64,000 nt of DNA from the NCBI GenBank assembly GCA_030706735.1, contig JAUZNZ010000001.1, positions 62,001-126,000 of the forward strand, in the 5' to 3' direction. The notes under the pieces were generated by a model that ran no database searches, was not told where the DNA came from, and worked only from the letters and a program-made list of their open reading frames with translations. Of the stretch, positions 44,814-53,650 are shown one piece after another. The stretch comes from Bacteroidota bacterium (GTDB lineage Bacteria > Bacteroidota > Bacteroidia > Chitinophagales > Chitinophagaceae). The stretch's first letter is position 1. Every line of letters starts with the position of its first letter. A program made the position numbers and the translations under genes.

Positions 44814-45095
44814 CTAGATCTTAAGGATATTATTTTTGTTTTTGGCATACTCTTCCTGTATCAGCTGGATTATCTGGCCTTTGTCTATTTCGCAAAATTT
44901 CGCGATCAGGAACAGTTCTTCGAGCGTGAATTTTTCGACCTTATGCATCAGCTCGGTGAAGCGGTCGACCTTTTTTCCGATATCCCTTGCCACGATCGTC
45001 TTTGGAATGAACTTGAAAATGTCATTGAAAGAAATTATTCTTCCCTCGGTTATCATAGGTTTGATAAGGTAGTATCGTGAATCTTTATCTTCCAT
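44814..45095 (-). CDS. Small HTH-like protein 1 (paralogue of 49668-49952)
   Basis: A 93-residue protein without signal peptide or membrane span. It aligns end to end with the protein at 49668-49952, roughly half the residues identical by eye, with shared blocks IPKTIVA.D.GKKV.RF and KFTL.EL. The stretch IVARDIGKKVDRFTELMHKVEKFTLEELFLIAKFCEID reads like a Cro/XRE-type helix-turn-helix, which makes a DNA-binding regulator likely. It is transcribed away from the DnaE-type polymerase gene. The 320-bp region between them holds two palindromes, so both genes may be controlled from there. Function is inferred; no named family was recognised. Confidence 0.65.
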   Translation of the reverse strand: MEDKDSRYYLIKPMITEGRIISFNDIFKFIPKTIVARDIGKKVDRFTELMHKVEKFTLEELFLIAKFCEIDKGQIIQLIQEEYAKNKNNILKI

Positions 45096-49649: not shown

Positions 49650-49667
49650 AAATCCTTTTATTTGTCT

Positions 49668-49952
49668 ATGGATCGTGATCCACGCTATGACCTTATCAAG
49701 GAAAAGATTGCAAAAGGGAATATTAAATCCTTTAATGAAATATTTTTCTTTATCCCCAAGACCATCGTCGCCAATGATCTTGGCAAAAAGGTCAATCGCT
49801 TCAACGAAATGATGGACCATGTCGGCAAATTCACGTTAGATGAGCTTTACGTCCTTGCGAGGAACTTCAAGATCCCGATGACCGAACTTCAGCTGGTGCA
49901 CGTCGAGTTCGAGAGGCAGGTAAAAAAACTCAATAAAGCAGACCAATCATAG
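49668..49952 (+). CDS. Small HTH-like protein 2 (paralogue of 44814-45095)
   Basis: About 94 residues. The track starts at a TTG (49662); the ATG at 49668 (MDRDPRYDLIKEKI) aligns with the start of the paralogue and is preferred. It shares SFNEIFFFIPKTIVANDLGKKVNRF and KFTLDELYVLAR with small HTH protein 1. The second half has the spacing of a Cro/XRE helix-turn-helix. It lies 103 bp after dinB with its own operator-like palindrome in front, suggesting autoregulation. Likely a DNA-binding regulator of the cassette; a direct role at the replication fork cannot be excluded. Confidence 0.65.
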   Translation: MDRDPRYDLIKEKIAKGNIKSFNEIFFFIPKTIVANDLGKKVNRFNEMMDHVGKFTLDELYVLARNFKIPMTELQLVHVEFERQVKKLNKADQS

Positions 49953-50599: not shown

Positions 50600-51400
50600 A
50601 TGTGTTTGGATATTGCCTATTATTCTGCGCTCGAACTGCTTGACGTTTATTTCCCCGAGTTGGTGCATGACGGCCAGTTACCGTTCGACCTGGACATGGG
50701 TATGCATTTCCTCGCATTGGGTCACAATCGTTATCCGGTCATCACCTTTGCCGAAGGCCGCTATCATCGCAAGTATTTCGAGTGGGGCATCATTGCGGAA
50801 TATATGGATACGCCGGAAAAGATCAAGGCCATGCGTAAATCCATGGTAAATGCACGAAGCGAGAAGATCCTTGATGATAAACGTTCCTTCTGGCATCGTA
50901 TCCGGCAAACCCGTTGCCTGATCCCTGTAACGGGAATCTATGAGCACAGGGAAGTGAAGGGATGGAAGAATAAGATACCTTATCATGTCAGGCTGAAAGA
51001 CCGGCCGATGTTCTGTATCCCCGGACTGTATCACTTCAATACCAGGATCCCTTCCGATCCGGAGACAGGCGAGATGCGAGGCATGTTCACGCTGATCACG
51101 CGGCCCGGTAATGAGATTATGTGCCAGATCCACAATTCGGGTGAGAATGCGCACCGGATGCCGTTGTTCCTTCCCCGAGAGCTTGAACTGCGTTGGCTGG
51201 ATCCGGATCTGACGGAAGAAGCCATGGCGGAGATCCTGGGGTATGAGATGGCTTCCGACCAGGTCGAATATCATACCGTATTCAGCATCCGGGGCCGGAA
51301 TCCGAGGCCGGATGGCAAACCGAAGAATGAGCCTTACGATTATCCTAATCTTCCGGCATTGGGCACAGATGCGGGATCGACGCAAAAGGCCCTGTTTTAG
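50600..51400 (+). CDS. SOS response-associated peptidase (SRAP) family protein, YedK/HMCES-like
   Basis: A 266-residue SRAP protein. After removal of the first Met the catalytic Cys2 (MCLDIAYYS) becomes the N terminus; in YedK and HMCES it forms a stable link to abasic sites in single-stranded DNA. The family core RCLIPVTGIYEHR (usually PADGFYEW), GLYHFNTR, FTLITRPGNEIM and the histidine in QIHNSGENAHRMPLFL are present. It is longer than YedK (222 residues). It lies 8 bp after the unknown 165-residue gene and next to the translesion polymerases, consistent with a role in tolerance of abasic sites. Confidence 0.88.
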   Translation: MCLDIAYYSALELLDVYFPELVHDGQLPFDLDMGMHFLALGHNRYPVITFAEGRYHRKYFEWGIIAEYMDTPEKIKAMRKSMVNARSEKILDDKRSFWHRIRQTRCLIPVTGIYEHREVKGWKNKIPYHVRLKDRPMFCIPGLYHFNTRIPSDPETGEMRGMFTLITRPGNEIMCQIHNSGENAHRMPLFLPRELELRWLDPDLTEEAMAEILGYEMASDQVEYHTVFSIRGRNPRPDGKPKNEPYDYPNLPALGTDAGSTQKALF

Positions 51401-51558
51401 GAGGGATGTGGCCGGAACAGGTCTGCGATCTTGATGCGATCCTAAAAAAATTACCCGGATCATGGAAATGACCCGGGAATTAAACCTTATCCTTTAGGAC
51501 CCGCATAGAAATACAGGTCGTGTCAGAACTGTGTCCTTGCTGTTCCAACCAAAAGTTT

Positions 51559-51577
51559 ATCTCTGAGGAGATTTTTC
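51559..51577 (+). terminator. Terminator-like hairpin after the SRAP gene
   Basis: ATCTC and GAGAT form a short stem around TGAG, followed by TTTTC. The stem is short, so this is only a moderate candidate. Confidence 0.4.
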
Positions 51578-51589
51578 TTAACTGAGTAA

Positions 51590-51917
51590 GTAAGATGAGA
51601 CGTTGAATGCAAATGGCGCAGGCCTCAGCTTACTGTCCTAGAGGCTCTGGCTGGCCAGGAAAACGAGTAAGAGAGACCCACGCCAATGGCATGGGCCCTT
51701 CGCTTCGTCATCCCGTTTTCCAGAATCTTGCCAGATTTCTAAGACGGAATCAAAAGCGAATTGCTTCAATGCATTCATGAAGAATTCGCAAAAATAGGTA
51801 TAACCCGGATATTGGCTTAGGGATACGTATTAGCTCATGTAGAGATACTGCCTTAACCAATGCAAACCAAAGATATGCTATTTATCTGATTTGAGGTCTA
51901 ATAAGACCGCATTTTTT
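51590..51917 (+). ncRNA. Candidate structured non-coding RNA ending in an intrinsic terminator
   Basis: Stems seen by eye: CAG-GCCTC with GAGGC-T-CTG (51619-51649); GGAAAACG with CGTTTTCC (51658-51665 and 51714-51721), extended by CTGGC with GCCAG (51651-51655 and 51730-51734); inside it CCCA-C-GCC with GGC-A-TGGG around AAT (51677-51695). The 3' end would be the terminator at 51895. It lacks the conserved motifs I know for RNase P RNA, tmRNA, SRP RNA or 6S RNA. The exact 5' end is a guess. Confidence 0.4.
51895..51917 (+). terminator. Intrinsic terminator upstream of the helicase gene
   Basis: GGTCT and AGACC enclose AATA, followed by GCATTTTTTATTTTTT. It lies 255 bp before the helicase start, so it either ends a separate RNA or acts as an attenuator in the helicase leader. 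Confidence 0.7.
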
Positions 51918-52171
51918 ATTTTTTCTTATACTTTTTTATCGGCAGGGCCTGATTTCCTCACGCCCATCAAGCCTTCCCATCGGATTCCCGGTTTTTTCCG
52001 ATGTTGGACAAAACTGGATTTTCAAAGGATGAACTTGCCTAATTCATTCATTTGTTGTACCTTGCAGCCGTTATAGCTCCTTTCTATCAGCTTTCGTGAC
52101 AACCTTCCAAGTAAAACCTCTGAAGGATAATGTGAGTAGACGGGCCTTTTTTCATTTAAACATCATTTATT

Positions 52172-53650
52172 TTGTCATTTTCAAATCTGAATCTCATTGA
52201 GCCTATATTAAAGGCTCTCGGGGACGAAGGGTATATTACACCCACTCCCATTCAACAACAAGCCATACCGATCATCCTTAACCGCAGGGACCTCCTTGGC
52301 TGCGCACAGACAGGCACAGGCAAAACAGCCGCCTTCGCTCTTCCTCTTTTGCAGATCATGCACGAAGGAGCGGCCTCCGACCCGCAAACCAGCCATCCAA
52401 GAGGCATCATGCCGATCAAAGCATTGATCCTTACACCCACGCGCGAACTGGCCATACAGATCGAGGAGAGTTTCCGCGCCTATGGGAAGTATACACGGTT
52501 GAAACACCTGGTCATATTCGGGGGCGTACCTCAGCACACGCAGGTACAAGTTCTGCAAAAAGGCATAGATATCCTGGTGGCAACGCCGGGTCGGCTCCTT
52601 GACCTGATGGATCAAGGATATGTCCATCTTCGGGATATCCGCTTTTTCGTTCTGGACGAGGCAGATCGCATGCTGGACATGGGCTTTGTTCATGACGTCA
52701 AAAAGATCATTTCCAAATTGCCGCAGAAACGGCAGTCACTTTTCTTTTCAGCTACGATGCCGCCCGAGATACAACGCCTGGCCGCAACCATCCTGGTCAA
52801 CCCGGAAAAGGTGGAGGTGACCCCTGCAGCCACTACGGCCGAGACGGTCACCCAATCGCTTTACTTTGTAGACAAGAAGGATAAGCGCGGCCTTCTTTTG
52901 CATTTGCTCAACTCTCCGGCGATCCCTACCGTCCTGGTGTTCACGCGTACCAAACACGGTGCCGACAAGGTCGCCCAGTCCCTGAACCGGGCGGGCGTAC
53001 GCGCCGAGGCGATCCATGGAAATAAATCCCAGAACGCACGGCAGAGCGCCTTGTTGAATTTCAAGAACAGGCGCACAAGGGTTTTGGTAGCCACCGACAT
53101 TGCTGCACGCGGGATCGACATCGATGAACTTACCCACGTGATCAATTTCGAATTGCCCAATATACCCGAAACATATGTGCATCGGATCGGCCGGACGGGC
53201 CGGGCCGGAGCAAGCGGCATTGCCATCTCTTTTTGCGACGCGGAGGAGAGGGAATATCTTCGCGATATTCAAAAACTGATCTCCAGGCCCATCCCGGTGG
53301 CGGAGGACAATCCGTTCGCCATGTCCGGCGCAAGTGCCGGAGCGGAAAGGAAAGAGATTGCCGCCGTTCGCGAGATCCTTCCGGTTCAAAAGAAGGGCTC
53401 TTCCGGCAATCCGCGAAGGAATGAACCCGCTCCCCGGCGCGTGGCTACGGTAAATACCGAACGACGCGAGAGGCCGCAAAAACCGGCGCCTCAACCACCT
53501 GTCCAAAAAATCCCCGTTCGTAAGCCGCCCCAGCGGCCGGAGATACATCCTCCTGCCGGGCACAGGACACCTGCGCAGGAACCCGGAGACGACCAGATAT
53601 CCATGCTGGGCTATGCCCTGAGGCAGGCCTCGGGTGAAGAAAAGTGGTAG
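52172..53650 (+). CDS. DEAD-box RNA helicase, RhlE-like
   Basis: ATP-dependent RNA helicase, 492 residues. Motifs in order: Q motif [14 protein letters not shown] ([11 protein letters not shown]), Ia (TPTRELAIQ), II ([10 protein letters not shown]), III (FSATM), V ([15 protein letters not shown]) and VI ([10 protein letters not shown]). The C-terminal 110 residues are proline- and arginine-rich and probably bind RNA. The start appears to be TTG at 52172, because [16 protein letters not shown] matches the usual RhlE N terminus and no in-frame ATG is upstream. The long leader suggests post-transcriptional or cold-related control. The prenyltransferase gene begins 3 bp after its stop. Confidence 0.92.

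Follow-up and report, generated by a model that had tools for sequence, protein, structure and literature searches.

A multicopy structured RNA family of Bacteroidia linked to Cro/CI-type regulator genes, with a predicted stand-alone copy divergent from a DEAD-box helicase gene

Results

Organization of the intergenic region

The window analysed here is a stretch of 64,000 nucleotides from a 5.05-Mb genome of the Chitinophagaceae (Bacteroidota). A 771-nt intergenic region in it (51401–52171) is bounded on the left by an SRAP/YedK-type gene (50600–51400) and on the right by a DEAD-box RNA helicase gene with a TTG start (52172–53650, plus strand; Pfam DEAD, 3.3e-51; Helicase_C, 6.4e-31). The first-pass annotation, which was made from the raw sequence, had described this region as free of genes, and we likewise found no credible gene in it; the TTG start that it pointed out is kept in the core Puia helicase loci. 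The helicase gene is syntenic across 13 Puia genomes, the window counted, and is directed away from the noncoding RNA described below. Comparison of the 771-nt stretch with its relatives revealed three separately conserved segments, A (51450–51560), B (approximately 51615–51790) and C (approximately 52058–52171). Segments A and C lie upstream of the helicase gene in 12 Puia relatives besides the window, at a spacing of 280–510 nt, and A is strongly diverged in the helicase locus of G011. B is absent between A and C in the helicase loci other than the window, and both A and B are also present away from helicases, as single copies or tandem arrays.

Alignment of 15 loci placed a -7 box of the TAnnTTTG type, TACCTTGC (TACCTTTGC in relatives), at 52058–52065 on the plus strand. 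The predicted 5′ leader of the helicase that follows it, element C (52066–52171, plus strand; ~105 nt), has a core at 52074–52154 (UUCCUUUCUAUCA..CUUUCGUGACAACCUUC..GAAGG..UGAGUAGACGGG), and its conservation is confined to the genus Puia. It resembles a cis-element of the helicase gene in its own right, distinct from the noncoding RNA. The first-pass annotation had taken the region as one structured RNA; a structured RNA is indeed present, but the region divides into a divergent noncoding RNA and this separate leader. A core of ~75 nt in element C (CUUUCGUGACAACCUUC, GAAGG and UGAGUAGACGGG) is nearly invariant across Puia and exhibits little covariation. A role of C as a family-wide riboswitch-like leader was rejected, since the model and the core pattern matched within the genus only, and one-mismatch matches outside the genus were no commoner than in a reversed control. 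An upstream open reading frame in C was discarded because, judged by eye, its start codon is not conserved and its frame is not kept, and a pairing of the A-domain loops (UNUCUA) with the leader (UUUCUA) was dropped because one loop position varies freely.

A covarying rod hairpin and a terminator module

On the minus strand, segment B contains the core of an RNA family (51610–51789), which consists of a 5′ hairpin, Pa (51789–51756), a junction, J1 (51755–51747), a 113-nt rod hairpin of stacked helices and conserved internal loops (51746–51634) and a tail, GUAAGnUGAGnnCYGCGC. The same 113-nt rod was found in nine sequences from eight genomes. Covariation was analysed on these 9 homologues in a MAFFT alignment (A6) with 46 pairs, against shuffles and against partners slid along the alignment. 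The proportion of paired cells was 90.5%, compared with 79% in shuffles, and fell to 31–47% when partners were slid by 1–3 columns. Double changes occurred in 19 of the 46 pairs, with 48 such cells versus 14.7 ± 2.9 in shuffles, and in helices 3–5 double compensatory changes affected 16 of 24 pairs. Single-sequence folding of the whole 771 nt was unremarkable (z = −1.7) and not decisive; once homologues are used, the B rod is far beyond chance. The several stems and nested long hairpin noted in the first pass thus include a real hairpin (51634–51746) that had been placed on the wrong strand, and the compensatory changes in homologues that were proposed there as a check are present, favouring a structured RNA. 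A pairing of GATGAGACG with CGTCATC, suggested as a pseudoknot or alternative fold, is not conserved; on the minus strand, the GATGAG-containing stretch is complementary to the B tail instead, within helix Pg described below.

Segment A (51450–51560, minus strand; R1, 98.7 bits) represents a 3′ module found in Puia only, which comprises hairpin 2 (51519–51498), GGAUAAGGUUUAA and a terminator hairpin. Ten of its 13 pairs show double changes, both of its hairpins have a tetraloop closed by U-A, and it contains conserved unpaired stretches. Matches of the A model in other genera were weak (26–33 bits) and not convincing. Tandem arrays of 2–4 A-domain copies were observed in G002, G009 and G013 (L021, 1529–2006; L022, 1700–2410; L024, 1915–2265), those of L021 and L024 adjoining XRE-type genes; the arrays resemble repeated RNA antitoxins, and a toxin was not identified at those loci.

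Strand, promoter and terminator of the predicted transcript

Covariation, the orientation of wobble pairs, a promoter and a terminator place the conserved structures on the minus strand. Read on the plus strand, the A-domain helices contain no G-U cell and 11 A-C cells, the latter being G-U on the minus strand, and the B domain read on the minus strand contains 29 G-U cells versus 13 A-C cells. An intrinsic terminator lies at 51444–51477 on the minus strand (stem, 51477–51454; U7, 51450–51444), and its hairpin is kept with compensatory changes in 18 copies. This is the convincing terminator of the region, whereas the plus-strand sequence previously read as one, GGTCTAATAAGACC (51895–51908), forms the centre of a palindromic 20-bp element of the promoter. 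A candidate -7 box matching the Bacteroidota TAnnTTTG pattern, TATCTTTG, was located at 51868–51875 on the minus strand; relatives have TATATTTG at the equivalent place, likewise on the minus strand and 150–420 nt ahead of the terminator.

Transcription would be expected to start near 51862, which gives a predicted minus-strand noncoding RNA of ~415 nt (~51862 to ~51447) that is directed away from the helicase gene. With this box and terminator on one strand and the box before leader C on the other, the region is a pair of predicted divergent promoters, leftward for the noncoding RNA and rightward for the helicase. We infer that the window copy is a single transcript in the order B, A and terminator, since there is one promoter and one terminator with none between, and since the same order recurs in G030 as a weak adjacent B–A match pair near an HTH gene that carries the palindrome. 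No same-strand gene lies behind the terminator of this helicase-linked copy, suggesting that it probably acts as a free, stand-alone RNA. The independent noncoding RNA, which was one of the options in the first-pass annotation, is the one supported, as a conserved, covarying and terminated RNA with its own predicted promoter.

Distribution of the RNA family

R3, a covariance model of B, was built from 9 sequences, the window among them, and its full-length match at 51610–51789 on the minus strand (150.4 bits, E = 1.8e-33) is that of a training sequence. Because the window helped to build R3, the independent test of the family is the search of Chitinophagaceae genomes, in which 140 of 349 genomes and 66 of 104 genera contained matches. 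Matches were also present in 16 of 33 genomes of the genus Puia and in 44 of 396 genomes sampled across the phylum, among them members of at least five further families of the class Bacteroidia. E-values reached 1e-40, and up to 7 matches per genome were found among the matches listed, with approximately seven candidates scored per genome.

Scans with all 4227 families of Rfam 15 gave no match at the gathering threshold on the window and 33 homologous loci; scans of the region and its homologues at E-value thresholds returned nothing, the best sub-threshold scores being at chance level. ARAGORN called no tRNA or tmRNA, viral contigs contained no exact match of the conserved B tail, and phages, plasmids and viral collections gave no DNA match. 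A literature search for an RNA motif in Chitinophagaceae found none, most subscription papers being beyond its reach. By these comparisons, B is a previously uncatalogued multicopy structured RNA family in Bacteroidia, absent from Rfam, of which an earlier description is possible.

Additional helices outside the rod

J1 (UUUGAGUCUCG), just 5′ of the rod, has its complement in an AGACUC(A) motif 16–41 nt past the tail, and the two would form a helix, P1. In 59 members the P1 pairing score was 13.3, compared with 11.96 ± 0.24 in shuffles and 12.28 ± 0.23 for swapped partners, and compensatory change was found in L131 and L163 (UUGGAGUC with GGCUCCAA in the latter). The best P1 match of the window copy is weak (8 nt), and P1 is not evident in most flavobacteria-like loci. 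At three loci with ECF-sigma genes (L152, L153 and L156), and only there, the start-codon region offers the P1 motif a second possible partner (GGACUCAU...AUGAGUCC), an arrangement that would act as a switch of translation. A second candidate helix, Pg (51590–51633, minus strand), joins GUAAGCUGAG in the tail (51633–51624) with CUCAUCUUAC in the flank (51599–51590) by 9 of 10 possible pairs. Tail-to-flank pairing across the family scored 13.96, against 12.5 ± 0.3 in shuffles and weakly above the 13.19 ± 0.34 of swapped partners; Pg is near-perfect in the window and supported in some loci only (L164, L175 and L185).

Gene neighbourhood of family members

Inspection of 66 loci revealed a small HTH gene, mostly of the Cro/CI type, divergent from the RNA and 52–215 bp upstream of it in 59 (46 of 53 plus 13 of 13; the count was made by eye on the protein listings). 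The HTH proteins vary greatly in sequence, with a mean column identity of 10%; when 47 of them were scanned, 36 matched Pfam HTH_26 (Cro/C1) and 31 matched HTH_3. The window copy and a few others have no adjacent HTH gene, and in the window that side is occupied by the helicase leader. A locus-specific palindrome often lies upstream of the RNA, the top score class being reached in 30% of loci versus 2.6% of shuffles, and TAnnTTTG occurs within 100 nt upstream in 28 of 66 family loci, compared with 6.2 ± 2.4 in shuffles.

The next gene on the RNA strand is often an ECF sigma factor gene 30–90 nt away (about a dozen loci, two of them Pfam-confirmed). Other downstream genes encode TonB plug/SusC or redoxin/thioredoxin-like proteins and lie ~190–420 nt away, and the remaining ones include HEPN genes and genes for proteins of unknown kind. 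HEPN/nucleotidyltransferase-like genes were observed directly downstream of the divergent family members L139 (with a Pfam HEPN match), L140 and L144, and also upstream of L151.

A palindrome shared with a distant Cro/CI-type gene

A 20-bp palindrome, TGAGGTCTAATAAGACCGCA (51892–51911), which is a probable operator, lies upstream of the RNA promoter in the window. At up to three mismatches it occurs in only two places in its own genome, the other being ~50 nt before a gene for a 78-aa Cro/CI-type protein on contig C79 (92240–92473; locus L105, 1571–1804). All 14 orthologues of the C79 gene have the palindrome at a constant distance, and all 12 promoters of helicase-linked RNAs contain it. The sites carry 1–5 mismatches to a fixed consensus, compared with shuffle means of ~7.6 and minima of 5–7, and the few with 5 mismatches scarcely outdo the best shuffle. 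Each of the 12 tested genomes with a helicase-linked RNA encodes an orthologue of the C79 protein; G027, whose A match is borderline, lacks one. Since the adjacent repressor gene is gone from the window but the operator is kept, the simplest reading is that the C79 protein probably controls the window RNA in trans.

A conserved operon of two tandem Cro/CI-type genes and a small membrane protein gene lies behind the shared palindrome (L105, 1571–2452; L015, 650–1453). The gene divergent from it encodes an APH-like phosphotransferase in the same genome as the window and a response regulator in G018.

Discussion

We consider the best explanation to be a structured RNA family that is new and is controlled by dedicated Cro/CI-type repressors; its members would mostly be leader RNAs, and the window copy a stand-alone RNA. 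We give this reading a probability of roughly 0.7. A typical locus would have a housekeeping-type promoter with a palindrome that overlaps it or lies ahead of it. The RNA made from this promoter would run divergently to a small Cro/CI-type HTH gene and be followed by an ECF-sigma gene or by a transport operon of the TonB/SusC or thioredoxin type. The HTH protein would repress both its own gene and the RNA promoter via the palindrome, and the RNA would be made once repression is lifted. As a 5′ leader, it may act as a switch in which two pairings compete, the closing helix P1 (UGAGUCU with AGACUCA) and one over the downstream start codon. The window would represent a case in which the repressor gene was lost and the operator kept, leaving the C79 protein to act in trans and the RNA free.

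A broader version is more tentative and, in our estimate, somewhat short of even odds. It describes a new regulatory RNA class across Bacteroidia with several copies per genome; every copy would form an orthogonal pair with its own Cro/CI-type repressor, which acts at a private operator, and would serve as a switchable leader of ECF-sigma, TonB/SusC or thioredoxin uptake operons, and the helicase-linked copy of Puia would have become a free RNA with a terminator, under control in trans. The pairing of the RNA with many different Cro/CI-type regulators suggests such a modular, orthogonal control circuit.

Several known systems share parts of this arrangement. In phage immunity regions, CI and Cro are expressed from divergent promoters, and the repressor gene has its own palindromic operator. 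The RNA loci resemble them in the divergent Cro/CI-type gene, the palindromic operator and the great diversity of repressors at otherwise similar loci, but in place of cro they have a conserved structured RNA facing the repressor gene, and no phage or viral contig matched. A structured RNA named the HTH-XRE RNA motif after its neighbouring XRE gene was reportedly described by Weinberg et al. in 2017; B has no match among Rfam's 4227 families and would differ from that motif if the motif is one of them. A human-microbiome survey of 100 candidate structured RNAs gives HTH-XRE genes as one of the two commonest neighbours (PMC8040213). The B family has such a neighbour too and is known from genomes of Chitinophagaceae and other Bacteroidia; overlap with those candidates is possible.

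The FopS and GibS sRNAs of Bacteroides thetaiotaomicron consist of ~65–70 nt with a single-stranded 5′ part and a terminator hairpin, and FopS, with 14 paralogues in one species, is deposited in Rfam (PMC11697453). Like them, the B family is a multicopy Bacteroidota RNA tied to SusC-type transport operons and housekeeping-type promoters (PMC11697453); unlike them, it has a covarying rod of >110 nt, is far longer (~415 nt predicted) and is paired with Cro/CI-type genes. This likeness underlies a doubtful yet serious alternative, in which the members act family-wide as trans-acting, base-pairing sRNAs, with GGAUAAGGUUUAA and GUUGGAACAGCAAGGACAC as seeds and the ECF/SusC linkage marking the target pathway. 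FopS sRNAs repress SusC mRNAs (PMC11697453), and the multicopy nature of the family, the conserved unpaired stretches of the A domain and the terminators, present in the helicase-linked copies and probable in L019 and L025, would agree with such a role. The short-seed layout with a terminator hairpin is not that of the window RNA, however, and the B core is mostly paired and has no Rfam family match. Moreover, at many loci the RNA lies 30–90 nt before a same-strand start codon with no clear terminator, an arrangement that suits a leader.

We regard it as very unlikely that the conserved unit is a DNA element, such as a mobile element end or recombination hairpin. Its multicopy, scattered occurrence beside diverse regulators and downstream genes could be read in that way, but a DNA element would not account for the prevalence of G-U pairs in one orientation, the palindromic promoter ahead and terminator behind, or the fixed gene arrangement, and the tail and DNA searches of viral contigs, phages and plasmids described above gave no match. 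More improbable still is the plus-strand leader or attenuator of the helicase proposed in the first pass: the position before the helicase and the folding of the plus strand (−64.7 versus −75.9 kcal/mol on the minus strand for the B segment) are outweighed by the G-U/A-C asymmetry, by the directions of terminator and promoters, with the helicase's own promoter (52058–52065) and ~105-nt leader lying in between and the RNA running away on the other strand, and by the occurrence of B mostly at loci without a helicase while A and C are kept at helicase loci without B. Nor is there any sign that cold or helicase activity serves as the signal. The RNA is linked to a Cro/CI-type repressor, and its downstream genes usually specify ECF sigma factors and TonB-dependent or thioredoxin-like transport.

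The preferred reading, a repressor-controlled RNA family, concerns a long covarying RNA present in two fifths of the sampled Chitinophagaceae genomes and in other families of Bacteroidia, yet missing from Rfam. In many genomes, the control regions of operons for nutrient uptake thus include an RNA that annotation has missed. The locus also illustrates that a reading of raw sequence can spot a real structured RNA and yet put it on the wrong strand.

To the left of the intergenic region, the window contains two ~90-aa HTH-like paralogues, 52% identical to each other (49662–49952, plus strand; 44832–45089, minus strand), which flank a DnaE2-like polymerase/DinB-type polymerase cassette beside an SRAP gene. 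The small open reading frame at 49662–49952 was considered as a partner protein and set aside, as no link to the window RNA was found. The paralogue family is multicopy, has fused double-domain forms of ~190 aa and gives weak or no Pfam matches; it was found in 10 of 24 genomes of the genus tested, and tests of other genera did not find it. At L002 and L019, HTH genes related to the 49662–49952 family adjoin the new RNA.
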